This document shows positions 13,038 to 45,566 of a DNA stretch of 47,591 nucleotides, piece after piece. Source of the DNA: an uncultured Porphyromonadaceae bacterium (GTDB taxonomy: Bacteria > Bacteroidota > Bacteroidia > Bacteroidales > Muribaculaceae); NCBI GenBank assembly GCA_947567425.1, contig CANOLV010000021.1, positions 1 through 47,591 on the forward strand, in the 5' to 3' direction. The position numbers and the translations under genes were made by a program. The notes under the pieces were generated by a model. That model made no database searches, had not been told where the DNA came from, and saw only the letters and a program-made list of their open reading frames with translations. Position 1 is the first letter of the stretch. Every line of letters begins with the position of its first letter.

Positions 13038-14072
13038 ATGAATCCAGCAAAAAACATATGCGTATGTGGCGGGGGAAGCCTCGGAACGGTGATAGCCGGA
13101 GTCCTCTCCTCCGAAGGGCGCAATGTCGACATCCTTACCGGACATCCCGGACGATGGGCTAACGACATCTCGATAACCGATCCGGACGGACGCATATACC
13201 AAGGCCGGATAAACGTCATAACCGACAACCCGGCAGACTGCATCCCCAATGCCGGAATAATACTCCTTTGCGTTCCGGGATTTCTGATCAAGACCGAGCT
13301 TGAGCGCATAGCTCCATACGTCGGACCAGGCACATTCGTCGGTTCCGTATTCTCATCCACCGGATTTTTCTTCGAGGCCTTTGACATATTGGATGAAGAC
13401 ATCCCCCTATGGGGATTTCAGAGAGTTCCGTACATCGCACGGGTGACCGATTATGGACGGTCGGCCAATCTGCTGGGCTATAAAAGCGCCTACAGTATTG
13501 CTGTAGAGCGGGCATCCGACTCCGACAAAGAACAGTTCAGGCTTTGGGTGCAGGAAGCTTTCGGCCGCCCCACGCATCTGCTTGCCAACTATCTCGAGGC
13601 AAGTCTGACCAACAGCAATCCGTTGCTGCACACGTCGAGACTATACTCCATGTTCCGCGACTGGACTCCCGGCACACTCTACGATGCCAATGTACACTTC
13701 TATGCCGACTGGACCGATGAAGCCTCGGAGCTGCTGATAGCCATGGACCGCGAGCTTTTCGACCTGATCGATGTGCTTCCGGTGTCAAAATCGTTCCTAC
13801 CCACCATACTCGACTACTACGAAAGCACCGATGCACGGTCGCTGTCGGAGAAACTAAAGTCGATTGAAAGCTTCAAGAACATAATGGCTCCGATGAAGGA
13901 GATCGGCGGCCGATGGGTCCCCGACTTCTCAAGCCGATACTTTACGGAGGACTTTGCCGTAGGTCTCAAATACATCCGTACTCTTGCCCATTCCCGCAAA
14001 GTTCCGGTTCCTGCCATCGACAAAGTGTATGAATGGGGAATAGACATCATCAATCGTCAAAACACGCTTTAA
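13038..14072 (+). CDS. NAD(P)-dependent octopine/nopaline dehydrogenase family protein
   Basis: The 344-residue protein begins with a Rossmann fold (ICVCGGGSLGTVIAGVLSSEG, GxGxxG-like) and continues with ILLCVPGFLIKTELERIAPYVGPGTFVGSVFSSTG, typical of the opine dehydrogenase superfamily. Its C-terminal helical domain includes NSNPLLHTSRLYSMFRDW, near the catalytic histidine of the family. Members reductively condense an amino acid with a keto acid, or run the reverse reaction; the substrate here is unknown. The ATG at 13038 is preferred because the -7 element ends at 13021 and the longer frame would begin upstream of the promoter. The GH92 gene starts 5 bp after its stop, so the two are cotranscribed. 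Confidence 0.82.
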   Translation: MNPAKNICVCGGGSLGTVIAGVLSSEGRNVDILTGHPGRWANDISITDPDGRIYQGRINVITDNPADCIPNAGIILLCVPGFLIKTELERIAPYVGPGTFVGSVFSSTGFFFEAFDILDEDIPLWGFQRVPYIARVTDYGRSANLLGYKSAYSIAVERASDSDKEQFRLWVQEAFGRPTHLLANYLEASLTNSNPLLHTSRLYSMFRDWTPGTLYDANVHFYADWTDEASELLIAMDRELFDLIDVLPVSKSFLPTILDYYESTDARSLSEKLKSIESFKNIMAPMKEIGGRWVPDFSSRYFTEDFAVGLKYIRTLAHSRKVPVPAIDKVYEWGIDIINRQNTL

Positions 14073-34534: not shown

Positions 34535-36811
34535 ATGAACAAAAAGACCATCGCGGCCATACTGGCATGCGCCGCCATGCATTCCGCAACCGCATTCGGA
34601 GCCGAGACCTCCGACATGGATCAGTTCATCGACAGCCTCTTGTCGAAAATGACCCTTGAAGAAAAACTCGGACAGATGAACCTGCCCCCCTCCGACGACA
34701 TCGTGACCGGAGCGCCGATGAACAGCAATATCGGCCAGGCGGTGGCAGAAGGCCGCGTCGGCGGAACGTTTAATGTCAAAGGAGCGGAAAAGGTAAAAGC
34801 GCTCCAGCAGATTGCCGTCGAGCAGAGCCGGCTGGGCATTCCGCTGATAATCGGCATGGACGTGATCCACGGCTACGAGACCATATTTCCCATCCCGCTC
34901 GCCATGGCCGCCACATGGGACATGGAGGCCGTCGAACGCTCGGCGAGGGTGGCCGCCACGGAAGCCTCGGCGGCGGGTATCAACTGGACTTTCAGCCCCA
35001 TGGTCGACATCAGCCGCGATCCGCGGTGGGGACGCATGGCCGAAGGTGCTGGCGAAGACCCATATCTGGGCGGCGAAGTGGCCCGTGCGATGGTGCGGGG
35101 CTACCAGGGCGACCTTAAGTCGGACACTCAGATAATGGCATGCATCAAGCACTTCGCGCTCTACGGTGCCTCGGAGGCCGGACGCGACTATAACACCGTC
35201 GACATGAGCCGCCTGCGCATGTTCAATGAATATCTCGCGCCATACCGCGCGGCGGTCGACGAAGGTGCCGGAAGCATTATGACATCGTTCAATCTCGTCG
35301 ACGGCATTCCCGCCACGGCCAACAAATGGCTGGTCACCGACGTCCTGCGCCACGCATGGAAGTTCGGCGGATTTGTCGTCACCGACTATAACTCCATTGG
35401 AGAGATCTCCATCCACGGACTCGGCGAGCAGGTGCATGCCTCAGCCATGGCCCTCAACGCCGGCACCGACATGGACATGGCCGCAGGAGCATTCATTGCC
35501 CACCTGTCCGAAGCGCTTGAACGCGGCGAGGTCACCGAAGCGCAGATCGACGAGGCCGTGCGCCGCATTCTTGAAGCGAAGTACCGTCTCGGACTTTTCG
35601 AGAATCCCTATAAATATAATGACACGTCGCGCGAGAAGACCGACATATACACCCGCGCCAACCGCGATCAGGCACGCGCCGCGGCCGTCAAGTCGTTCGT
35701 GCTTCTGAAGAACGACGACCGCCTCCTCCCCCTGAAGCCGCAAGGCTCGATAGCCCTGATAGGACCTCTCGCTAACACTGCCGCCAACTTGACCGGCACA
35801 TGGTGCGTGGCCGCCGACCACAGTAAGTACAAGACTCTGCTCCAGGGCCTGCGCGATGCCGCGGACGGAAAAGCCGAGATCCTATATGCCAAAGGGTCCA
35901 ACATCTACGCCGATCCACGGACAGAGCGCGGAGTGGCATTCGGCCGAGACATACGCGATTCACGCTCCGACGACGAACTGCTCGCCGAAGCCCTTGAAGT
36001 GGCCGCAAAGGCCGATGTGATAATAGCCGCCGTAGGCGAGATGTCGGAATCGAGCGGCGAATCGGCCAGCCGTACCGACCTTGAACTGCCGGCCACGCAG
36101 AAGCGCCTGCTCGAAGCGCTCGCCGCTACCGGCAAGCCCGTTGTGATGCTCAACTTCTCCGGACGCCCCACGGTGATGACATGGGAGTCGGAGCGCATTC
36201 CCGCCATACTCAACGTCTGGTTTGGAGGTTCTGAAGCCGCCGATGCCATAGCCGACGTTCTGTTCGGCGCGGCGAATCCTTCCGGCAAACTGCCCGTCTC
36301 GATGCCGCGCAATGTAGGTCAGATTCCACTCTACTACAACCATCTGTCCACCGGACGTCCCCCGCACCAGCCATGGACAGGATTCCAGCAATATGTCAGC
36401 AACTATGTCGATGCGCCCAACACTCCTCTCTATCCGTTCGGATTCGGCCTCAGCTACACGGACTTCAGATACTCCGATTTCGCCATTTCTTCGTCTGAAA
36501 TGACCATGGACGGCAAAATCACCGCCTCGGTCACCGTCACCAACACCGGCGACCGGCAGGGCGACGAGATCGTACAGTTCTACACCCGCGACCTCGTCGG
36601 CTCAATATCGCGTCCTGTCCAGGAATTGAAGCACTTCGAGCGCATATCACTGAATCCCGGCGAGAGCCGCACCGTCAGCTTCGACATAACGGCCGACTGC
36701 CTCCGCTTCTACAACTCCGACCTCGACTATGTAGCCGAACCGGGCGAATTCCTCATCATGGCCGGCCCCTCAAGCGACAAAGTCGACACCCTCCGCTTCA
36801 CCCTGAAATAA
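34535..36811 (+). CDS. bglX: Glycoside hydrolase family 3 beta-glucosidase (BglX-like)
   Basis: The 758-residue periplasmic enzyme starts with a signal peptide (KKTIAAILACAAMHSATAFGAE). The catalytic barrel has MTLEEKLGQMN, GIPLIIGMDVIHGY, NWTFSPMVDISRDPRWGR and KHFALYG, with the predicted nucleophile Asp284 in FVVTDYNSI. The second domain includes SFVLLKNDDRLLPL and GEMSESSGESASRTDLELP, and a C-terminal fibronectin III-like domain starts near ASVTVTNTGDRQGDE. This order matches BglX. It would release terminal glucose (or a related sugar) from beta-linked oligosaccharides. I start it at the ATG at 34535, downstream of a consensus promoter; the longer frame would run through that promoter. Confidence 0.94.
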   Translation: MNKKTIAAILACAAMHSATAFGAETSDMDQFIDSLLSKMTLEEKLGQMNLPPSDDIVTGAPMNSNIGQAVAEGRVGGTFNVKGAEKVKALQQIAVEQSRLGIPLIIGMDVIHGYETIFPIPLAMAATWDMEAVERSARVAATEASAAGINWTFSPMVDISRDPRWGRMAEGAGEDPYLGGEVARAMVRGYQGDLKSDTQIMACIKHFALYGASEAGRDYNTVDMSRLRMFNEYLAPYRAAVDEGAGSIMTSFNLVDGIPATANKWLVTDVLRHAWKFGGFVVTDYNSIGEISIHGLGEQVHASAMALNAGTDMDMAAGAFIAHLSEALERGEVTEAQIDEAVRRILEAKYRLGLFENPYKYNDTSREKTDIYTRANRDQARAAAVKSFVLLKNDDRLLPLKPQGSIALIGPLANTAANLTGTWCVAADHSKYKTLLQGLRDAADGKAEILYAKGSNIYADPRTERGVAFGRDIRDSRSDDELLAEALEVAAKADVIIAAVGEMSESSGESASRTDLELPATQKRLLEALAATGKPVVMLNFSGRPTVMTWESERIPAILNVWFGGSEAADAIADVLFGAANPSGKLPVSMPRNVGQIPLYYNHLSTGRPPHQPWTGFQQYVSNYVDAPNTPLYPFGFGLSYTDFRYSDFAISSSEMTMDGKITASVTVTNTGDRQGDEIVQFYTRDLVGSISRPVQELKHFERISLNPGESRTVSFDITADCLRFYNSDLDYVAEPGEFLIMAGPSSDKVDTLRFTLK

Positions 36812-36847
36812 CCCCGCACAACAAACCAACCTACGCACGGCACAGCA

Positions 36848-36950
36848 ACCGGGCACATGTCGCCTTTCGGCTCCATGTGCCCGGTCATCCACGATACCCG
36901 CATATCTACATACCAAGGATCTGCAGTAGGGACGCACGACCCGTGCGTCC
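36848..36950. repeat. Palindrome repeat copy A (partial mosaic)
   Basis: It contains a perfect 12-bp stem ACCGGGCACATG (36848-36859) / CATGTGCCCGGT (36874-36885). A linker containing ACGATACCCGCATAT, also present in copy B, follows, then a 9-bp palindrome GGACGCACG / CGTGCGTCC with a 3-nt loop (36930-36950). It lies downstream of the GH3 gene in a 233-bp non-coding gap. Confidence 0.8.
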
Positions 36951-36980
36951 GCCAACCATCAACCCCACAGCACAGGGACA

Positions 36981-37025
36981 AAAAAATAGGACCCTTAAGG
37001 CACAGATAAATGCCAAGGGTCCTAT
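36981..37025 (-). terminator. Rho-independent terminator of serS
   Basis: The stem ATAGGACCCTT (36986-36996) / AAGGGTCCTAT (37015-37025) with inner GGCA/TGCC pairs is followed on the minus strand by seven U residues (36980-36986). It lies about 20 bp past the serS stop. Confidence 0.92.
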
Positions 37026-37044
37026 CCTTCAATATTGTTATTTA

Positions 37045-38316
37045 TTAGTCAATGATGTCGAAGCCAGTGTACTTGCGCAGGCATTCAGGCACTACGATGC
37101 CCGCCGGAGTCTGATTGTTTTCGAGCAGAGCGGCCATGATACGGGGCAGAGCCAGAGCCGAGCCGTTGAGCGTATGGCACAGACGCGTCTTCTTGTCCTC
37201 GCCGCGGTAACGGCACTTCAGGCGGTTGGCCTGATAAGTCTCGAAGTTAGACACGGACGACACTTCAAGCCAGCGCTTCTGTGCCGCCGAAAATACCTCG
37301 AAGTCAAACGTTATGGCCGACGTGAACGACATGTCGCCTCCGCACAGGCGCAGTATATGCCAGGGGAGACCGAGCTTGTCGAGCAGACCCTGCACGTGGT
37401 CCTTCATCTCCTCAAGGGCGGCGTAGGAGTTCTCAGGCTTCTCGATGCGGACTATCTCCACCTTGTCAAACTGATGAAGGCGGTTCAGGCCGCGCACATC
37501 CTTGCCGTAGCTGCCGGCCTCGCGACGGAAACATGCCGAATAGGCGCAGTTCTTGATCGGAAGCTGGTCCGGATTGAGGATCACGTCGCGATAGAGGTTC
37601 GTCACAGGCACTTCGGCGGTCGGGATCAGATAAAGCACATCCTCGTTGACGAAATACATCTGGCCCTCCTTGTCGGGAAGCTGGCCCGTACCGTAGCCCG
37701 AAGCCTCGTTGACCACATAAGGAGGCTGCACCTCCAGATAGCCGGCCTTGCCCGCTTCGTCGAGGAAGAATTGTATCAACGCACGCTGCAGACGCGCACC
37801 CTTGCCCAGATAGACGGGGAAGCCCGCTCCGGTGATCTTCACTCCAAGGTCGAAGTCGATCAGATTATACTTCTTGGCCAGGTCCCAATGGGGAAGTGCG
37901 TCCTCGGGAAGATCAGGCATCGGACCGCCGGTCTTCTCCACCACATTGTCGGCAGCAGTCTTTCCCTCGGGCACCATGTCGCACGGCAGGTTAGGTATCG
38001 TCAGAAGGATGTCGCGGATCTTATTTTCCGTGCGGGCCAGTTCTTCGGCTATGGCCTTCTGCTCATCCTTGATGGCGGCCACGGTAGCCTTCACCGTCTC
38101 AGCCTCCTCCTTCTTGCCCGACTTCATCAGCTGGCCTATCGAGGCAGCCAGTTTGTTAAGTTCCGCGGCCTTGGTGTCGTTGGTCAACTGTGCCTGACGG
38201 CGCTGGGTGTCGAGATCAAGTATCTCCTTTATAGTGACGGAACCGTCATACCCCTTTATCGCGAGGCGTTCGACGACGCGTTCCGGATTCTCCTTGATTT
38301 GCTGAATTGTAAGCAT
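37045..38316 (-). CDS. serS: Seryl-tRNA synthetase
   Basis: The 423-residue class II enzyme charges tRNA-Ser. The N-terminal 110 residues form the long antiparallel coiled coil that grips the tRNA (AAELNKLAASIGQLMKSGKK and following). The catalytic domain includes motif 2 in ACFRREAGSYGKDVRGLNRL (around residues 260-280) and motif 3 at the end, ALPRIMAALLENNQTPAGIV followed by VPECLRKYTGF. Length fits. Directly upstream is a perfect 21-bp tandem repeat (38323-38364) that fills the gap to yqeY, and a strong terminator follows the gene. Confidence 0.97.
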   Translation of the reverse strand: MLTIQQIKENPERVVERLAIKGYDGSVTIKEILDLDTQRRQAQLTNDTKAAELNKLAASIGQLMKSGKKEEAETVKATVAAIKDEQKAIAEELARTENKIRDILLTIPNLPCDMVPEGKTAADNVVEKTGGPMPDLPEDALPHWDLAKKYNLIDFDLGVKITGAGFPVYLGKGARLQRALIQFFLDEAGKAGYLEVQPPYVVNEASGYGTGQLPDKEGQMYFVNEDVLYLIPTAEVPVTNLYRDVILNPDQLPIKNCAYSACFRREAGSYGKDVRGLNRLHQFDKVEIVRIEKPENSYAALEEMKDHVQGLLDKLGLPWHILRLCGGDMSFTSAITFDFEVFSAAQKRWLEVSSVSNFETYQANRLKCRYRGEDKKTRLCHTLNGSALALPRIMAALLENNQTPAGIVVPECLRKYTGFDIID

Positions 38317-38322
38317 GGAAAT

Positions 38323-38364
38323 TTTATTTTTCTTTCATTTATGTTTATTTTTCTTTCATTTATG
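38323..38364 (-). repeat. Perfect 21-bp tandem repeat upstream of serS
   Basis: Two identical 21-bp units, 38323-38343 and 38344-38364, abut head to tail between the yqeY stop and the serS start. Each unit on the minus strand contains ATGAAAGAAAAATAA, a complete tetrapeptide frame (MKEK). The second unit overlaps the yqeY stop codon. Confidence 0.85.
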
Positions 38365-38809
38365 ATAGTAACTCCTTAACCTTAGCCGAGATCGCGCGGC
38401 CCTCGGCCCGACCGGCAAGCTCCTTCGAGGCCACGCCCATCACCTTGCCCATATCCTTGGCTGACGATGCGCCCACCCGCGCTATGATGGCTTGAAGCTC
38501 CGCCGTCAGCTCAGCTTCCGACAGCTGGCGTGGAAGATACTCCTCGATGATGGCCGCCTGGGCAAGCTCGTCGGCCGCCAGCTCCGGACGGTTCTGTCCT
38601 GAATAGATTTCCGCGCTCTCCTTGCGCTGCTTCACCATTTTAACTAATATCTTTGTCGCAGCCTCGTCCGTGAGGGTTCCGTCTGCCCCGGGGGCTGTCT
38701 TTGCTTCAAGAAATTCCTTCTTTACTCCGCGCAGTGTCTCCAGTCTGACGCGATCCTTGGCCAACATGGCCGACTTGATGTCGGCGCTGATTTTTTCAAA
38801 AAGATCCAT
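38360..38809 (-). CDS. yqeY: GatB/YqeY domain protein
   Basis: The 149-residue helical protein matches YqeY, which resembles the C-terminal tRNA-binding domain of GatB. It starts LFEKISADIKSAMLAKDRVRLETLRGVKKEF and ends SSAKDMGKVMGVASKELAGRAEGRAISAKVKELL, both conserved in the family. Its function is uncertain; it is often near translation genes and here precedes serS on the same strand. A -7 TATATTTG on the minus strand (38842-38849) gives a leader of about 28 nt. The divergent M48 gene has its own -7 element 33 bp away. Confidence 0.92.
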   Translation of the reverse strand: MDLFEKISADIKSAMLAKDRVRLETLRGVKKEFLEAKTAPGADGTLTDEAATKILVKMVKQRKESAEIYSGQNRPELAADELAQAAIIEEYLPRQLSEAELTAELQAIIARVGASSAKDMGKVMGVASKELAGRAEGRAISAKVKELLS

Positions 38810-38921
38810 CTTAAAGGTTATCTAAATTTTTTATCAATGTGCAAATATAGGGATTTTATACGATATTTGGCACATATTTACTAATTTTGCACCCTACAAA
38901 CCAACTAATGCTGTTATAAAT

Positions 38922-39725
38922 ATGAAAAAAGTAGTTTTCGCACTGACGTGCTTGCTATTAAGCACACCTTGCTTTGCTCAGTTCAATCTTAAGAAGGCCG
39001 TGGGAGCCGCCACCAAAGCCGCCCAGGCCGTCACTCTGACCGACGCGCAGATGGCCGCTTATGTGAAGGAATCCGTCGACTGGATGGACAAGAACAACCC
39101 TGTCCTGCCCGACGACGACCCCTACACCATTCGACTGAAGAAGCTGACCGAGGGCATAACCGAAGCCGATGGCATACCCTTGAACTTCAAAGTCTACAAT
39201 GTCATTGATGTCAACGCCTTCGCCTGCCCCGACGGATCTGTACGCGTGTTCGCCGCACTGATGGACATTATGAACGACGACGAACTGATGGGAGTCATCG
39301 GACACGAGATCGGACACGTCCTGAAGCACCACTCCAAGAACGCATTCAAGAACCAGCTTCTCACAGGTGCCCTCAAGGATGCCGTGGCCTCAACCGGCAA
39401 CAAGGCCGCCGCGCTCACCGAGTCGCAGCTCGGAGTGCTCGGCGAATCGCTCGTCAACGCCAAATACTCCCAGAAGCAGGAATCTGAAGCCGACGATTGC
39501 GGCTACGACTTCCTCGTGTCGAAAGGACGCAACCCCTGGGGCATCGTAATGTCATTCGAAAAGCTTCAGAGCCTCGAAGGCGGCGGACAGAAGATGTCGT
39601 CGGTAGAGAAAATGTTCTCTTCGCACCCCGACACCCAGAAGCGCATCGACAACATGACCAAACGCTGCAAAAAAGACGGCTACGAACGCCCCGCGGCCAC
39701 TGAACAGACCCAGGAGCAGAAATAA
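38922..39725 (+). CDS. M48-family periplasmic metalloprotease
   Basis: The 267-residue protein has a signal peptide (KKVVFALTCLLLSTPCFA) and a zinc-protease motif GHEIGHVLKHH with His128, Glu129 and His132. The third zinc ligand probably lies in KYSQKQESEADDCGYDFL (ExEAD type). Relatives such as BepA and LoiP act in outer-membrane protein quality control. The region after the motif includes FSSHPDTQKRIDNM, a conserved M48 segment near the C-terminus. A -7 TAATTTTG is at 38882-38889. The mosaic repeat copy B starts about 85 bp after the stop. Confidence 0.9.
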   Translation: MKKVVFALTCLLLSTPCFAQFNLKKAVGAATKAAQAVTLTDAQMAAYVKESVDWMDKNNPVLPDDDPYTIRLKKLTEGITEADGIPLNFKVYNVIDVNAFACPDGSVRVFAALMDIMNDDELMGVIGHEIGHVLKHHSKNAFKNQLLTGALKDAVASTGNKAAALTESQLGVLGESLVNAKYSQKQESEADDCGYDFLVSKGRNPWGIVMSFEKLQSLEGGGQKMSSVEKMFSSHPDTQKRIDNMTKRCKKDGYERPAATEQTQEQK

Positions 39726-39808
39726 ACATACTCCGCATCCCTCGGTCCATAACCCAACCGACCCACGCCCGGCCCGGCCATCCACAGCCATGCCGGGCGC
39801 TTCACATC

Positions 39809-40249
39809 AACCCCACCCGTAGGCCCGCACGGCTCGTGCGTCCACCGTCAACCAATCTTGCCGTAGGCCATCGTGGCAGAGCCACGACACAATGGTAGCC
39901 CCAACCAACCCCACAGCAAGGACGCACAGCACAGTAACCGGGTACATGGAGCCGACAGGCGACATGTGCCCGGTCATCGACGATACCCGCATATTGATGT
40001 CCGCAGGACATCGATTGCGGCAAACTCCCACATATATATATCGAGGAACTGCAGTAGGGACGCACGGCTCGTGCGTCCACCGACAACCAACCGCATTGCA
40101 CGGCTCGTGCGTCCACCGTCAACCAATCTTGCCGTAGGCCATCGTGGCAGAGCCACGACACAATGGTAGCCCCAAGCAAGCTCGGCAGAGCCGCGCACAG
40201 CTTGGGGTAGCCGGACATCCTCCCCCGACAAACGGCTACAGAGTAGCCG
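39809..40249. repeat. Palindrome repeat copy B (longest mosaic)
   Basis: It holds a degenerate first palindrome (39826-39840), TCGTGGC-AGA-GCCACGA (39871-39887) and a 12-bp stem like copy A (39937-39974). GATGTCC-GCA-GGACATC (39996-40012) and GGACGCACG-GCT-CGTGCGTCC (40058-40078) follow. Then come a second TCGTGGC-AGA-GCCACGA (40142-40158), CCCCAAGC...GCTTGGGG (40170-40207) and CGGCTAC-AGA-GTAGCCG (40233-40249). The last hairpin sits 3 bp from the stop codon of the leftward lipoprotein gene. The whole 39726-40252 gap has no convincing reading frame. Confidence 0.85.
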
Positions 40250-40252
40250 AAC

Positions 40253-41647
40253 TCATGCTCCGTCGCCTTCCGCGCCGCTCTTTCTTCCGGGATATGGAGG
40301 TTGCACGAATATGAATTGGTGATGAGCATTCAACGCCGCGAAAAAGGGTGTGGATGACATCCCGACAAAAAATGGTCCTGAATACTCCACCGTCACCCTG
40401 ACGACACGCTCAAGTCCTGTCAAATTCGGAGCAAATACACAGTCGATGCCATCACGGGAATTATGGTGACGAACTCCTGCGGCACCTTCCAAGACCGGAA
40501 AGTCCCAGCTGCTCCAACCCAAGACTATCGTATTTCCAGTCCTTCGATAAGTCTTGTCGTCAACCGTGAGATGCTCCGCAAACACTACCTCATAATTCAA
40601 CGACTTTATACTCAAGGTGTCACCCATCGGCGACACTTTCATCGGATGGCCCGCTATTCCGCCTGTCCACCTGGTGCCGTCATTGACAAGCTCCCATTCA
40701 GGATAATAATGGCTGACCTCACGGTCATACTTATACCCTTCAAACATTTGGTATACAAGAATTTTCGATTTCCGCTTACCGTCGCTCACCCATAGGCCTA
40801 CGCCATTCTTTTTTCCCGTGGCATTCCGCGGAATCTCAAACAGTATACTGTCATTTTTAGCCTTGACCCTTATACCATTTTTCTCCACCAGTTCACCGGT
40901 CACCTCTTCCGGTTTTAAATTGCTATCGCTTATACGCAGATTGCCTCCGTTAAGACATTTCAATCCGAATGATCCGCCGTGACTCGGCACATACATACTT
41001 AGCGGTGTCCCATTATTTGATGTAAAGTAGAACAGCCTATGTGAATCCGACTTCCAATATAAATATTTCTCCTCCTCCACACTGCCGGTTCTGACCTCGC
41101 CGGCATCCTGATTGAACGTGAGACGGACTATTCCATCCCCCTGGAAGTCGTGGACACACACCACATACTTGTGAGGCATAGCATAGGCGTCCGGCTCTAT
41201 GGTCAGACGGATGCAGTTAGGCTCCTGGACATCAAACTTCACTCCGTGGCGAATGAAATCAAGTGGAATACAATTCCAATCCACATCGTTTGAGTGTACC
41301 ACTCCGTCAAATTCCGCCCAACGGATTATTTGGTTACATGTCGGAAACCAGAACGTAAACTCCTCACCTTCGGCCGGAACATTAAATTCATATTCCCCCG
41401 GACCGCGCACAGTGACATCGTCGCCCAGCATCCACCACAATCTCATGCGTTCCTCCTCCGGCAGATCAAACCAACTCTTATATGCTATCGTATCCAATCC
41501 ATTATGGCCCTGATCGGGACCAACCGGATCCTCGGGAAGATTCGGATCCTCGACCTCCTCCATGACCCCGTCAGAACAACCGATAAAGGCCGGCACGCAC
41601 ATCAGCGCACCCACAATAGCGACAAAGCCCATCATTAATCTTTTCAT
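40253..41647 (-). CDS. Tandem lipoprotein 1 (BACON-like domains), unknown function
   Basis: The 464-residue lipoprotein has a type II signal peptide ending FIGC (Cys24). The mature part begins with an acidic, Pro-rich linker (VMEEVEDPNLPEDPVGPDQG), then SWFDLPEEERMRLWWMLGDD and beta-rich segments (RLTIEPDAYAMPHKYVVCVH, GIVRLTFNQDAGEV) resembling BACON/Ig-like modules. It is paralogous to the next gene (41903-43246): signal peptide and linker are nearly identical, the body diverges. It probably sits on the cell surface or in the periplasm. I recognise no enzyme motif. It is flanked by repeat copies B and C. Confidence 0.8.
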   Translation of the reverse strand: MKRLMMGFVAIVGALMCVPAFIGCSDGVMEEVEDPNLPEDPVGPDQGHNGLDTIAYKSWFDLPEEERMRLWWMLGDDVTVRGPGEYEFNVPAEGEEFTFWFPTCNQIIRWAEFDGVVHSNDVDWNCIPLDFIRHGVKFDVQEPNCIRLTIEPDAYAMPHKYVVCVHDFQGDGIVRLTFNQDAGEVRTGSVEEEKYLYWKSDSHRLFYFTSNNGTPLSMYVPSHGGSFGLKCLNGGNLRISDSNLKPEEVTGELVEKNGIRVKAKNDSILFEIPRNATGKKNGVGLWVSDGKRKSKILVYQMFEGYKYDREVSHYYPEWELVNDGTRWTGGIAGHPMKVSPMGDTLSIKSLNYEVVFAEHLTVDDKTYRRTGNTIVLGWSSWDFPVLEGAAGVRHHNSRDGIDCVFAPNLTGLERVVRVTVEYSGPFFVGMSSTPFFAALNAHHQFIFVQPPYPGRKSGAEGDGA

Positions 41648-41688
41648 ACTATCCTATTTTTAAGTTCTCAATTCAAAATATTCTATTA

Positions 41689-41893
41689 ACCCCACCTGTA
41701 GGGACGCACGGCTCGTGCGTCCACCGACAACCAACCGCATTGCACAGCTCGTGCGTCCACCGTCAACCAATCTTGCCGTAGGCCATCGTGGCAGAGCCAC
41801 GACACAATGGTAGCCCCAAGCTGTGCTCGGCAGAGCCGCGCACAGCTTGGGGTAACCGGACATCCCCCCCGACAAACGGCTACAGAGTAGCCG
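41689..41893. repeat. Palindrome repeat copy C
   Basis: Between the two lipoprotein genes: GGACGCACG-GCT-CGTGCGTCC (41702-41722), TCGTGGC-AGA-GCCACGA (41786-41802), a long stem CCCCAAGCTGTGC (41814-41826) / GCACAGCTTGGGG (41840-41852) enclosing CGGC-AGA-GCCG, and CGGCTAC-AGA-GTAGCCG (41877-41893). This copy keeps the most complete form of the third hairpin; copies B and D lost symmetry in one arm. Confidence 0.87.
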
Positions 41894-41902
41894 CACTCAT
41901 GC

Positions 41903-43246
41903 CTACTGCTCCTTTGGCTGCCATCCATACGGCGGCTGAATAAATACAATACTGGAACTCATATACATGAACTCCCTCACACAATACAGACTAACATGAA
42001 TTATACGGTCCTCAAAGCCATAATATGGCATTATTTCGATCACCCCTTCACGCTGGTTTATAAATTCAATTTTTATAAGACCCTCGACATAAGTTAAGTT
42101 TCCCACGTACCACAAATTAATATCATTATTTAGATTGCACCGAACGCCAGGCTTAACAGAAATGTTATTAACACATCTGAACCGGTACTCTCCACCCTCA
42201 TTGCCTATCATCACAGTATTCACTCCATACTTCCATCCAAAAAGAGTTCCGTCGCTTGCATTGGAAAAAACGACATCACGGAATTTACGCCAATCATATC
42301 CAGACTCCATTGCCGTACTCTGTCTTATCAAGAAAGACGAACTCTCCCCATCAGGAGACACGATGCTCGCTCTTGCCCATCTGAACGATTCGCCCGGCAT
42401 GACTCTAAACCGAATCCTGCCTCCGGTTATTTCAATCTCAAATCCTCCGTCGGAATATGTCCCGACACCCTCTGCCAGGCTGATATCCTCGCCGCATATC
42501 GTTATCCCGCCCAAATACAGCTCGTCACGGTTAAGACATTCCACGTCAAACGTCCCGCCGTCCATGCCCAGCTCTGCATCATAAAAATGATCCGACAGAT
42601 CCTGGTTGTAAACTTGAGTTCCAGATATGCTCTGACTCAGAATGTAGCTGTCAGGCACTGTCCATTTCAATTTTCCTGAACTTTCTTTTATCGGATTCGA
42701 ACCCGGTGGCTGTGTAAACGCCAATATCAGTTTCTCATAATTCCGTCCCGTAAAGCATAAGGTAAACCGTCGCTCAAACCCATACCTATTTGGATCAAAG
42801 GATATACGCGTTCTATTCTCCTCATCGACGAAATGTATATCTTCAAATTCCTTTTTCGTAATTAACTTACGATCAGAAAGTTTATTTCCAAGATGATTAT
42901 TATACATATACACCACACCGTCGATTTCTACATAGAGCAGCTTAACGTCGCAGTCGGGAAACCATACATCGAAGTCGCCGCCCGAAACAGGCACGGAGAA
43001 ATCATATTCCCCGGGGCCAAGCATAGTCATATCGTCGCCCAGCATCCAACGAAGATACCAACGCTCCTCCTCCGGTTGGTCAAACCAACTGACGGCATCG
43101 GGAAGCGGAAGAGTCCCGGGCTTGAATCCGCCAGATCCATCCGGATCCTCGACCTCCTCCATGACCCCGTCAGAGCAACCGACAAAGGCCGGCACGCACA
43201 TCAGCGCACCCACAATAGCGACAAAGCCAATCATCAATCTTTTCAT
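41903..43246 (-). CDS. Tandem lipoprotein 2 (paralogue of 40253-41647), unknown function
   Basis: The 447-residue lipoprotein has signal peptide and lipobox FVGC (Cys24), then GVMEEVEDPDGSGGF and SWFDQPEEERWYLRWMLGDD, matching its neighbour. The remainder is a diverged version with the same strand pattern (RISFDPNRYGFERRFTLCFTG, LILAFTQPPG) and ends FMYMSSSIVFIQPPYG, again like MSSTPFFAAL...FVQPPY in the neighbour. The DNA from about 43141 to 43310 (signal peptide, leader and repeat start) is nearly identical to the equivalent stretch near 41540-41710, showing a recent duplication or conversion of this head region. Function unknown. Confidence 0.8.
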   Translation of the reverse strand: MKRLMIGFVAIVGALMCVPAFVGCSDGVMEEVEDPDGSGGFKPGTLPLPDAVSWFDQPEEERWYLRWMLGDDMTMLGPGEYDFSVPVSGGDFDVWFPDCDVKLLYVEIDGVVYMYNNHLGNKLSDRKLITKKEFEDIHFVDEENRTRISFDPNRYGFERRFTLCFTGRNYEKLILAFTQPPGSNPIKESSGKLKWTVPDSYILSQSISGTQVYNQDLSDHFYDAELGMDGGTFDVECLNRDELYLGGITICGEDISLAEGVGTYSDGGFEIEITGGRIRFRVMPGESFRWARASIVSPDGESSSFLIRQSTAMESGYDWRKFRDVVFSNASDGTLFGWKYGVNTVMIGNEGGEYRFRCVNNISVKPGVRCNLNNDINLWYVGNLTYVEGLIKIEFINQREGVIEIMPYYGFEDRIIHVSLYCVREFMYMSSSIVFIQPPYGWQPKEQ

Positions 43247-43285
43247 ACTATCCTATTTTTAAGTTCTCAATTCAAAATATTCTAT

Positions 43286-43578
43286 TAACCCCACCCGTAG
43301 GGACGCACGGCTCGTGCGTCCACCGTCAACCAATCTTGCCGTAGGCCATCGTGGCAGAGCCACGACACAATGGTAGCCCCAAGCAAGCTCGGCAGAGCCG
43401 CGCACAGCTTGGGGTAGCCGGACATCCTCCCCCGACAAACGGCTACAGAGTAGCCGAACCCATGCCCGGCCGCGATGCGGCCGTTGAAGAGAGGGAGAAT
43501 GGCTTCACGCGACCATAAGTTGCGCCCGGCTCTGCCGAGCTTGCTTATGGCTACATTTATCAGGCGGATACTCCGCCT
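43286..43578. repeat. Palindrome repeat copy D with three extra palindromes
   Basis: It contains GGACGCACG-GCT-CGTGCGTCC (43301-43321), TCGTGGC-AGA-GCCACGA (43349-43365), CCCCAAGC...GCTTGGGG (43377-43414) and CGGCTAC-AGA-GTAGCCG (43440-43456). Three extras follow: CGGCCGC-GAT-GCGGCCG (43467-43483), an inverted relative of the third hairpin with CCATAAG/CTTATGG arms around CGGC-TCT-GCCG (43513-43550), and AGGCGGA-TAC-TCCGCCT (43562-43578). It would lie in the 5' leader of lipoprotein 2 if transcription starts near 43669. Confidence 0.87.
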
Positions 43579-43672
43579 CGGCTACGCCATTCCCCTTCAC
43601 TATTTTTGAATAATTTTCTTCATCATATTTATGCGTTTATTAAGGTTAAAAAATTATGTCGGCCGACAATTA

Positions 43673-43703
43673 CAAAGGTAAATCATCCGACCTAAAAAAT
43701 CAA
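43673..43703 (-). promoter_or_regulatory. Leftward promoter ahead of the lipoprotein cluster (TTG-N20-TACCTTTG)
   Basis: Minus strand: -33 TTG at 43701-43703, 20-bp spacer, -7 TACCTTTG at 43673-43680. Transcription from about 43669 would run through repeat copy D and reach lipoprotein 2 after roughly 420 nt of structured leader. The leader holds no long reading frame. Confidence 0.6.
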
Positions 43704-43753
43704 GGATTTCAGCGTGACACCCACCCATTAAGAGCAGGGTCGCAAACGCGCAT

Positions 43754-43805
43754 AACACACTGTAAATATTGTGTTTATACCTCAACACATCAATCCCGCG
43801 ATGTG
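43754..43805. promoter_or_regulatory. Two dyad symmetries between divergent promoters (operator candidates)
   Basis: AACACA (43754-43759) / TGTGTT (43770-43775) and CACATC (43786-43791) / GATGTG (43800-43805) are inverted repeats. They lie between the leftward promoter (43673-43703) and the rightward promoter (43852-43883). The motif TGACACCC also occurs twice nearby (about 43714 and 43805). Confidence 0.4.
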
Positions 43806-43851
43806 ACACCCCCAAACACACAGCCTTTATTATGCGACAAAACATATATTT

Positions 43852-43883
43852 TTTGGTTTTCTAAAGGATATTTTTTATTTTTG
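43852..43883 (+). promoter_or_regulatory. Predicted promoter of the TPR-HTH gene (TTTG-N20-TATTTTTG)
   Basis: -33 TTTG at 43852-43855, 20-bp spacer, -7 TATTTTTG at 43876-43883; the leader would be about 15 nt to the ATG at 43902. Confidence 0.75.
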
Positions 43884-43901
43884 TCAAAAATACTTTCAAC
43901 C

Positions 43902-45566
43902 ATGCAAAAATATCTCATACTTTCCCTTATATCTTCCATGATACTGATAGCATGCACAAACCATTCGGAGTATCAGAAGGTCTTGGACAGCGCCGAGCAT
44001 CTTATGTTCAGTCATCCCGACAGTTCCTTGAAGATATTGGAATCCACAAAACGAACCTCAAATATGAGCCCCGATGATCTTGCCCGTCTGGCTCTACTAT
44101 TGACACAGGCCCAAGCAAGGACCGGCATGACATCCCCAAACGACTCACTCATCAATATTGCGATATCACATTATGAAAACAGCAGTGACCGCCGCCGACT
44201 CGCATGGAGTTATCTGTACGCAAGCGACATATATGACCGCCTCGGTATCGACAGTCTTGCCGTAAAATACATCCGTCTATCCGACGAGGTCGCGGATGAA
44301 GTCTGCGACACCACTCTTCTCTACTATGTCAATTATTTCAGAGGCAACATGTTGAACCGGAATATACCCTACGAACCGGCTTTAAAATACCTGGGGGACG
44401 CACTGAACTATGCCATAGCTATGAAAAGCGACAGCCGGGCTATAATTTGCCTTAACGAGATCGGAACCGTCCATCTGGCACTCGGAGATACAGAGAAAGC
44501 TAAAACCATGTTTTTTAAGGCCCTGGCCCTAATAAACCACGACTCTCTTTTGTGCTATGAAGCACCGGTAAACCATAAGATAGCCCTCGCATATTTTGCC
44601 GAAGAGGACGACAGGCAAGCCCTAAATTACATCAATAACTCCGTCCGAAAAATCCGAGAATTTAATTGTTTTGTAAATTATTCATCAATTTATACATTAA
44701 AATTTTAAATACTTAAGGCTTTTGGGTAAAACGACTCTGCCGAGGCATATATTCAATCCATGATGGGCGACGGATCATTAGTAAGCAGATGCATAGCAGA
44801 ATTCGACCTTTCCCATATCGAAGAAAACCGTGGCGATTACAAGAATGCCCTCCTCCACTTAAAGGCCTACCGGCAATATGCCGACACACTCCACAAAATG
44901 GAAATAGCCGACAAGATTGTCGAACTCGAAAAAGAGTATGATTTACTTGGAGCAGAAGCGGCTATGGCAAGATCTGAGCTTGAACGCAGAAACACAGAAT
45001 TGATTCTGGCATGTGTCATTTTCTGCTCATTGATAATAATTCTCGTAATTGTTTGGGCATACGGACGAAAGCGGGCCCAACTTCTCGAAACAGAAAGGGC
45101 GCGCGAATCCATGATCAGTACAGCCGTTAACAGAGTACAGGCTGAAGCGAGCCGTATTTTGATTGAAGAACGCGCCGGAAACGATGCTTTCCGCCAGCAC
45201 GTATTAGACACGGACATGCTCATCAAGCGAATAAGGAATATACGAAAAATGCCGGACGGCAAACGCATTAAGTCAAAAGCGGAGCTTAAGCTCCGGCCTA
45301 ACGAAATCATGCATCTGACAAGCGTAATCGACGTATGTCATAATGGATTCATCACAAAACTCAAAGAGACATACCCATCTCTGACCGACAAGGACATCGA
45401 GCTATGCTGTCTCATAAGGCTCGGAGTGCCGGGCCCGGACATCCTGCACCTGCTCGACATAAGCGACGATGCCCTGCGCAAACGCAGGCAACGGCTTAAA
45501 GAACGCCTTAATTTCAAAACCGACGACAACCTGAACGAATGGCTTTCCATCGTGGATTTCCAATAA
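43902..45566 (+). pseudogene. TPR-transmembrane-HTH regulator interrupted by two in-frame TAA codons
   Basis: Read through, this is a 554-residue frame: a lipobox (LIAC, Cys18), TPR-type helices (YQKVLDSAEHLMFSHPDSSL onward), a transmembrane helix (about 366-388), a coiled coil and a C-terminal HTH of LuxR or sigma-region-4 type (LTDKDIELCCLIRLG...DDALRKRRQRLKERL). This resembles the common Bacteroidetes TPR regulators of 550-600 residues. Codons 269 (44706-44708) and 276 (44727-44729) are TAA, yet the frame is kept and the flanking sequence (YTLK..ILKAFG.NDSAEAY) reads as a normal TPR. Separate frames 43902-44708 and 44760-45566 remain open, so a split gene is the alternative to decay. I start it at 43902, just after a consensus promoter. 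Confidence 0.75.

Follow-up and report, generated by a model that had tools for sequence, protein, structure and literature searches.

Insertion sequences (ISs) of the IS200/IS605 type are autonomous, and their ends carry hairpins on one strand. Their enzymes and the TnpA_REP transposases of repetitive extragenic palindromes (REPs) bind folded hairpins on one strand, with guide tetranucleotides at the hairpin foot directing cleavage (PMC8266576; here and below, statements from the literature refer to those sections of the cited papers on which we draw). We examined a 47,591-nucleotide stretch from an uncultured Porphyromonadaceae bacterium (GenBank assembly GCA_947567425.1, contig CANOLV010000021.1, positions 1 to 47,591), called the window below, in which families of short palindromes surround two lipoprotein-like genes. 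We give a probability of roughly three in four to the reading that these palindromes are single-stranded DNA (ssDNA) recognition hairpins of two coexisting HUH/Y1 transposase systems, the first consisting of a GTAG-tagged REP and a REP-associated tyrosine transposase (RAYT) encoded on contig C27, and the second of composite and module A ends together with short TnpAs.

Besides these IS enzymes, three described groups come closest. REPtrons with TnpA_REP of subclass 2.4 combine a GTAG foot, a 9-bp stem, a 3-nt loop and dispersed copies with a RAYT gene that has REPs around it and one inserted in frame after its HuH motif (Di Nocera 2013, PMC3733652; Quentin 2018, PMC6006769), and in all these respects the first system resembles them; the GTAG repeats given by Di Nocera are from phyla other than Bacteroidetes. 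TnpA_Y1 of subclass 1.2, which the second system resembles in its Y---Q--HH motif, length (about 148 aa), low copy number and occurrence in Bacteroidetes, was listed in 2018 without REPs and kept apart from the IS subclass (Quentin 2018, PMC6006769), the absence of REPs or terminal hairpins being an observation on other genomes and not a sequence criterion. TIRtrons, in which the gene of a terminal inverted repeat-associated tyrosine transposase (TIRYT) lies between terminal inverted repeats, some of them self-complementary and repeated in the genome (Di Nocera 2013), share that layout with the second system.

Hairpin modules in the window and across the genome

The sequence of three hairpin copies, B (39809-40249), C (41689-41893) and D (43286-43578), was read directly, and their repeats were located by an independent repeat search. 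The whole window holds 16 perfect hairpins with a stem of at least 7 bp and a 3-nt loop, 14 of them within 36800-43600, against 0-8 (mean 2.8) in 20 first-order Markov versions of the window, confirming that these copies are real and stand above chance. The palindrome GGACGCACG-GCT-CGTGCGTCC occupies 40058-40078, 41702-41722 and 43301-43321, and variants of it are at 36930 and 39823; TCGTGGC-AGA-GCCACGA is found at 39871, 40142, 41786 and 43349, and CGGCTAC-AGA-GTAGCCG at 40233, 41877 and 43440; and CCCCAAGC...GCTTGGGG encloses CGGC-AGA-GCCG at about 40170, 41814 and 43377. A 169-nt repeat unit has four members (39827, 40098, 41742 and 43305; identity 63-100%), and copy B contains an additional truncated unit at 39809-39908. 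The initial annotation had read these motifs as a single ordered set shared by B, C and D; the modules are present at the sites it gave, but the set proves to be the GTAG palindrome standing beside an independent three-hairpin module, the composite, with the layout hp1, GTAG foot, bipartite hp2 and hp3. The extra palindromes it had ascribed to copy D were all found (a GAT loop at 43467, a TAC loop at 43562 and an inverted relative with a TCT loop at 43509-43554), as was a 12-bp stem common to B and an outlying copy A, perfect at 36848-36885 and with one mismatch at 39937-39974. This stem and a GCA-loop hairpin make up module A. The features, with the evidence for each, are as follows.

36848-36885, minus strand: module A hairpin hpA1 (ACCGGGCACATG...CATGTGCCCGGT), inverted relative to copy B; the same module flanks the tnpA gene on contig C10
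36926-36950, plus strand: GTAG REP (GTAG and GGACGCACG-ACC-CGTGCGTCC); read directly, genome search and foot check
39809-39908, plus strand: first, truncated unit of copy B, with a variant GTAG REP (39819-39843) and composite hp1 (39871-39887), running as far as the GTAG foot of hp2; 97% identical to positions 2-101 of the composite query
39935-40016, plus strand: module A end, with hpA1 (39937-39974) and hpA2 (GATGTCC-GCA-GGACATC, 39996-40012); 82% identical to the end flanking C10 tnpA
40054-40078, plus strand: GTAG REP of copy B; genome search and foot check
40098-40114, plus strand: 5'-truncated GTAG REP of copy B; sequence read, repeat search
40130-40252, plus strand: composite end module of copy B (hp1, GTAG foot, bipartite hp2, hp3); genome copies, alignment and covariation
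41698-41722, plus strand: GTAG REP of copy C; genome search and foot check
41742-41758, plus strand: 5'-truncated GTAG REP of copy C; sequence read, repeat search
41774-41896, plus strand: composite end module of copy C; genome copies, alignment and covariation
43297-43321, plus strand: GTAG REP of copy D; genome search and foot check
43337-43460, plus strand: composite end module of copy D, the left arm of a transposase-less inverted pair; genome copies, alignment, covariation and unit alignment
43467-43483, no strand: hp4 (CGGCCGC-GAT-GCGGCCG), centre of the copy D inverted pair; hairpin scan and unit alignment
43509-43590, minus strand: right-type inverted end (hp2', foot', hp1'), the right arm of the inverted pair 43332-43600; aligned with three other genomic units

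A search of the organism's own genome (2.92 Mb in 57 contigs, 92% complete) checked the possibility that the modules occur only at this place, which would have spoken against the dispersed REP-like family suggested earlier. They are dispersed: the GTAG palindrome occurs, with at most two mismatches, at 15 places on 7 contigs (21 match rows, some being both strands of one place), the composite in 11 full-length copies on 7 contigs plus partial ones, and module A in 24 matches, some to one hairpin only. None of 12 composite copies (one partial), none of the 24 module A matches and one of the 15 GTAG palindromes fall inside an open reading frame of at least 200 aa, where 1527 of 2000 random windows from the same loci do; another two GTAG palindromes are located within the RAYT gene on C27, which at 179 aa is under that limit. 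Elsewhere, the composite gave one weak 45-nt match in the 197 other genomes of the family among the matches listed (G075), with no tnpA in 1.7 kb around it, in a search that scored up to four candidates per genome and listed five of the own-genome matches, so that weak copies could be missed.

Placement between genes would also be expected of transcribed structured RNA, that is, of terminators, stabilisers of mRNA 3' ends or RNA spacers, and REPs are thought to act partly in this way (PMC3733652); the 23 distinct intergenic regions that hold modules comprise 11 co-directional, 8 convergent and 4 divergent ones. A terminator consensus scan found three sites where 3.8 were expected, none of them at a module, and no T-runs follow the palindromes, in agreement with the earlier view that these are not ordinary terminators. 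The companion suggestion of structured RNA spacers is not supported: 36500-44000 has no Rfam match at E<=1, T-runs are missing and the strand rule of the GNA loops, described below, speaks for DNA. We consider an RNA role very unlikely.

Two probable transposase systems in one genome

GTAG directly precedes the 9-bp stem of GGACGCACG-GCT-CGTGCGTCC at all 15 genomic places and, judged by sequence, the tagged palindrome is a REP. Its likely RAYT is encoded on C27 (L053:6001-6540, 179 aa), by a class-2, subclass-2.4-like tyrosine transposase gene with the HuH motif NHIH, the Y motif EYIKNN and WQ. The reading frame runs through two REP copies, one near the N-terminus (the start codon itself being uncertain) and the other between the HuH and Y motifs; a REP inserted between these motifs without disruption of the frame is the stated peculiarity of subclass 2.4 (PMC6006769). 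Of the motifs of that subclass (NH[IFV]H, WQ and YIxNNP), the C27 protein has the first two, and it departs from the published type in having YIKNNV, without the final proline, and in an NCBIfam score under the cut-off (see below). Relatives of this RAYT occur in 60 of the 198 family genomes. A perfect hairpin with a GT[AG]G tag stands within 400 nt of the gene at 19 of the 30 loci returned, our own included, a raw count without a shuffled control; the tagged hairpin lies inside the gene span at eight of the 30, likewise without such a control and perhaps too high a count, since spans were taken from all tblastn pieces and the 738-nt span of L278 is probably too wide. The exact palindrome of the window recurs at five other loci of the RAYT family (L278, L283, L284, L285 and L288). 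This half of the material is a new example of an already known REPtron type.

Another class-2 Y1 gene, on C45 (L050:9678-10289), encodes a protein of 203 aa that is 37% identical to the C27 RAYT, and overlaps both neighbouring frames. It was rejected as the RAYT of the palindromes, there being no GTAG-tagged hairpin beside it.

The second system is represented by a pair of intact short Y1 genes, the C10 type and the C31 type being present once each; the two proteins, of 147 and 144 aa in no particular order, are 33% identical. Their HUH/Y1 identity is supported by PF01797 scores over the cut-off, by an AlphaFold2 model with a mean predicted local distance difference test score of 91.8 and by a profile search that finds the TnpA of ISHp608 (E 2.1e-18). 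The C31 tnpA lies between hp1-hp2-hp3 and hp3'-hp2'-hp1', and the C10 tnpA between hpA1-hpA2 and hpA2'-hpA1', with one further direct copy. The composite hp1 (CGTGGC-GGA-GCCACG in several copies) is identical to hp1 of a decayed C31-type element on C2. Across 11 aligned composite copies, 97.4% of cells are paired, and three pairs show compensatory change in six cells; the cell counts and covariation score were reached by none of 500 shuffles. Three further inverted pairs lacking a transposase (on C18, C31 and C2) align with copy D along its length, and the four units, of about 260-330 nt, each with two inverted ends and no transposase, appear from their sequences to have the form of a miniature inverted-repeat transposable element or of a REP doublet forming a hairpin (REPIN).

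The decayed element on C2 (L044:8682-8910) is a C31-type tnpA with an internal deletion; hairpin-end sequence still stands beside it, and a composite inverted pair abuts it. A weak tnpA-like match in the window itself (13041-13322, E 0.009) was set aside as chance.

The search for a REP-associated tyrosine transposase proposed in the initial annotation thus had a positive outcome (the class-2 RAYT on C27 and the short TnpAs on C10 and C31), and its idea of a REP-like mobile palindrome system holds in so far as the modules are dispersed and intergenic and tyrosine transposases are present; what changes is that two systems are interleaved, in place of one shuffled family. The case for a single classical RAYT/REP system behind all the modules would be the GTAG that precedes both the 9-bp palindrome and the composite hp2, and the position of the two side by side in B, C and D. 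Elsewhere in the genome the two occur separately, and the 9-bp palindrome goes with a class-2 RAYT, while the genes between A-type or C31-type modules encode short TnpAs with the subclass 1.2 Y motif. The single system was rejected once the C27 gene had been found, and of the alternatives weighed here we think it the least likely.

On the reading with two systems, the GTAG REP would be the substrate of the class-2 RAYT, and elements of the second system would consist of an end, tnpA and an inverted end, composite and module A both being end modules; solo ends and inverted pairs of about 260-330 nt without tnpA, such as copy D, would be their remnants. The ends would fold on lagging-strand ssDNA, where TnpA would bind the hairpins and its catalytic tyrosine would cut beside the TA[AG] or GTAG foot, with the foot as guide; by analogy, hp2 and the GNA hairpins would give strand recognition. 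Excised or copied ends would then insert into intergenic ssDNA, which would make the modules mobile. The TnpA that serves the composite would be of the C31 type.

Inverted ends across the transposase family

Relatives of the C10 protein occur in 93 of 198 family genomes. From these we assembled a family set of 91 tnpA genes (our own two, 29 returned loci besides C10, and 60 picked in order from among the matches listed, about a dozen having been passed over, mostly near contig ends), of which 88 have at least 200 nt on both sides. At 76 of the 88 loci, the similarity of the left flank to the reverse complement of the right flank exceeds the 99th percentile of 704 mispaired controls; direct, same-strand similarity exceeds the same threshold at 44. 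In a further set of 79 loci from named genomes, the best of 568 relatives, inverted ends pass at 53 of 70 usable loci. Fourteen of the 79 share a tnpA with the family set, and when these are left out inverted ends pass at 40 of 57 loci, namely at 22 of the 28 whose titles are of Bacteroidales type, 11 of 19 from other Bacteroidota and 7 of 10 from other phyla. This grouping was made by record title; most of the titles belong to metagenome bins, and some may be wrong. Of 647 pseudo-genes set at other positions within the same loci, 2 pass. The tnpA in a complete Actinobacillus genome (L207), which is of the second system's type and is without inverted ends at threshold, is a possible case of horizontal transfer.

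The similarity of ends tracks TnpA identity, from 18 of 18 pairs above 80% through 23 of 55 at 60-80% and 6 of 185 at 50-60% to 2 of 877 at 40-50%, 0 of 2005 at 30-40% and 0 of 181 below; by these sequence comparisons, ends co-diverge with their transposase. Dispersal is apparent in a second genome, that of congener G013, where a search with the tnpA end yields 29 matches: 12 stand beside tnpA, and the other 17, which are weaker (E 1e-13 to 8e-4), are spread over ten other contigs. Among loci of at least 3 kb, 29 of 158 (28 of 146 distinct genes) show an additional copy of the end at a distance of over 600 nt. In G173, an array of end modules resembling a bacterial interspersed mosaic element extends over 2.3 kb beside tnpA (L147; G173:C1:2216969-2219297), with no further match in that one-contig genome.

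The ends have a common signature. In 182 ends of 350 nt each we found 185 perfect hairpins with a 3-nt loop and a stem of at least 6 bp, against 17.3 in Markov versions, and when loops are read from the outside towards the gene, GNA outnumbers TNC by 128 to 25, against 5 to 6 among 40 in background sequence. In the family set the counts within 200 nt are 51:1 for left ends and 60:4 for right ends (111:5 in total), and the bias is weaker in the further named loci (98:19 overall; 48:9, 31:6 and 19:4 in the three groups). GNA loops give extraordinarily stable DNA mini-hairpins (PMC4686876). GNA thus lies on the inward strand at both ends, so that a single tnpA transcript would carry GNA at one end only and TNC at the other, which speaks for DNA and against a function in RNA. 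A bipartite hairpin was found within 230 nt in 84 of the 182 ends, and 54 of these 84 have TA[AG] at the 5' foot of hp2, compared with 11 on the opposite strand. A GA/GA internal-loop signature in hp2, complete in 21 of the 84 and on the opposite strand in one, is suggestive and confined to a minority of ends.

Could these simply be ordinary IS ends, left by decayed copies of class 1.1 IS200/IS605 elements, with nothing REP-like about them? The two short TnpAs do score over the NCBIfam IS200 cut-off (72.7 and 64.6 vs 55), their best solved relatives by profile are IS200/IS605 enzymes (ISHp608 and others, E about 2e-18), likewise HUH/Y1 proteins, and C2 has a decayed tnpA copy with its ends. 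The ends are, however, inverted, with GNA on the inward strand at both, in place of hairpins on one strand, direct copies occurring in addition at the 44 loci mentioned. They also outnumber tnpA: one C10-type gene stands against 24 module A matches, three of which are beside it. Near-identical transposase copies are lacking as well, since the tnpA copies are few and divergent, with 90 distinct proteins among 91 and two intact genes, one per type, in our genome, and the Y motif is that of subclass 1.2. We regard this explanation as unlikely.

Among the short TnpAs that motif is present in 25 of 25 aligned proteins, C10 and C31 included, and in 89 of the 91 of the family set. The difference from subclass 1.2 as published is that inverted multi-hairpin ends flank most of the genes examined here and are dispersed in at least two genomes; we found no account of hairpin ends for subclass 1.2 in the PMC literature searched. 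From TIRtrons the second system differs in that 20 of 26 TIRYT examples are of subclass 2.1 with helix-turn-helix tails, and in that the TIRYT motif GGGGWSAS is unlike the bipartite hairpin described here, with its TA[AG] tag and GNA loops. Integron attC sites were considered and rejected: GTTRRRY/RYYYAAC core sites are absent from copies C and D, and B has one stray site seen from both strands.

Several observations weigh against the account given so far. Inverted ends do not reach the threshold at 12 of 88 family loci and 17 of 57 further loci. The consensus DH[IV]H of subclass 1.2 is present in 15 of 25 aligned proteins and 53 of the 91 (C10 has DHVH, C31 NHVH), and the consensus WQ in 3 of 25, C10 and C31 both having WA; both are table consensus motifs of Quentin 2018, where DH[IV]H is not given as a strict criterion. 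The RAYTs score 55.2 (C27, NF047646) and 58.1 bits against an NCBIfam RAYT cut-off of 80. In G173 all 12 end matches lie beside tnpA, and in Belliella calami 18 of 23 are local, near tnpA on the same contig; from these positions we conclude that local arrays are common and dispersal is not universal. None of 11 congener M48-gene loci with usable downstream sequence (of 13) has the hairpins of the window, but their neighbouring genes are not conserved, so that they are not clean empty sites. As to the composite, the weaker covariation measures are unimpressive (pairs changed on both sides were reached by 15 of 500 shuffles, pair types by 133), hp3 is invariant in all copies, and no intact TnpA is flanked by an exact composite, its link to the C31 type being the shared hp1 and layout. 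Its loops in the window are AGA and not GNA; because the hp1 loop is GGA in five of the eight copies outside the window, we regard the window composite as a variant of the GNA pattern.

Taking these points together with the evidence for inverted ends, we think it rather probable that TnpA_Y1 enzymes with the subclass 1.2 Y motif form an unrecognized, widespread REPtron-type system of Bacteroidota, reaching Verrucomicrobiota and Planctomycetota by record titles, with inverted three-hairpin ends (a TA[AG]-tagged bipartite hairpin between GNA mini-hairpins) that diverge along with the transposase and give rise, across genomes, to solo ends and to pairs lacking a transposase. The TnpAs of the second system may, to judge from their motifs, be a branch beside the subclass 1.2 genes sampled in 2018, in which case the ends would be new for an unlisted branch instead.

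Neighbouring genes, probable local duplication and implications

Two tandem lipoprotein-like genes, which are host genes outside the elements, sit between the hairpin copies, the lipobox of both proteins having been judged by eye.

40253-41647, minus strand: lipoprotein-like protein 1, 464 aa; no family match
41903-43246, minus strand: lipoprotein-like protein 2, 447 aa; 30% identical to protein 1 overall, with the first 35 or so residues nearly identical

A 195-nt block, 96% identical between 41540-41734 and 43139-43333, covers the start and upstream region of each lipoprotein-like gene together with the GTAG REP, and suggests, from sequence comparison, gene conversion or modular duplication. 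Because B, C and D are near-identical and the block extends into the gene start while the proteins are 30% identical overall, duplication or gene conversion probably took place within the window after the modules had arrived, and the near-identical copies around the two genes would have spread partly in this way. The same contrast could be taken to mean that the modules spread purely passively, carried along with the lipoprotein genes through tandem duplication and gene conversion, with no transposition. Against this, eight full composites lie on six other contigs with different flanks (two on C2 share the left flank), and module A has matches on ten contigs besides that of the C10 tnpA; we hold passive spread alone to be very improbable.

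Just upstream of the gene at 37045-38316, which we take to encode seryl-tRNA synthetase, the window has a perfect 21-nt tandem duplication in two copies (38323-38364). In congener G076 (L269), two copies of a different palindrome, GCGGTCAGTATGACCGC, lie near the orthologous M48 gene, downstream of it.

A group of transposases that the 2018 account gave as being without REPs appears to have a recognizable end architecture of its own and, if this is true, an orphan, widely distributed HUH enzyme gains a predicted substrate. The strand-specific GNA mini-hairpins offer a testable rule for strand discrimination by an ssDNA transposase, and the family provides many natural pairs of enzyme and substrate. 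Much of the intergenic hairpin clutter around these genes would then be explained as mobile DNA and not as regulatory RNA.

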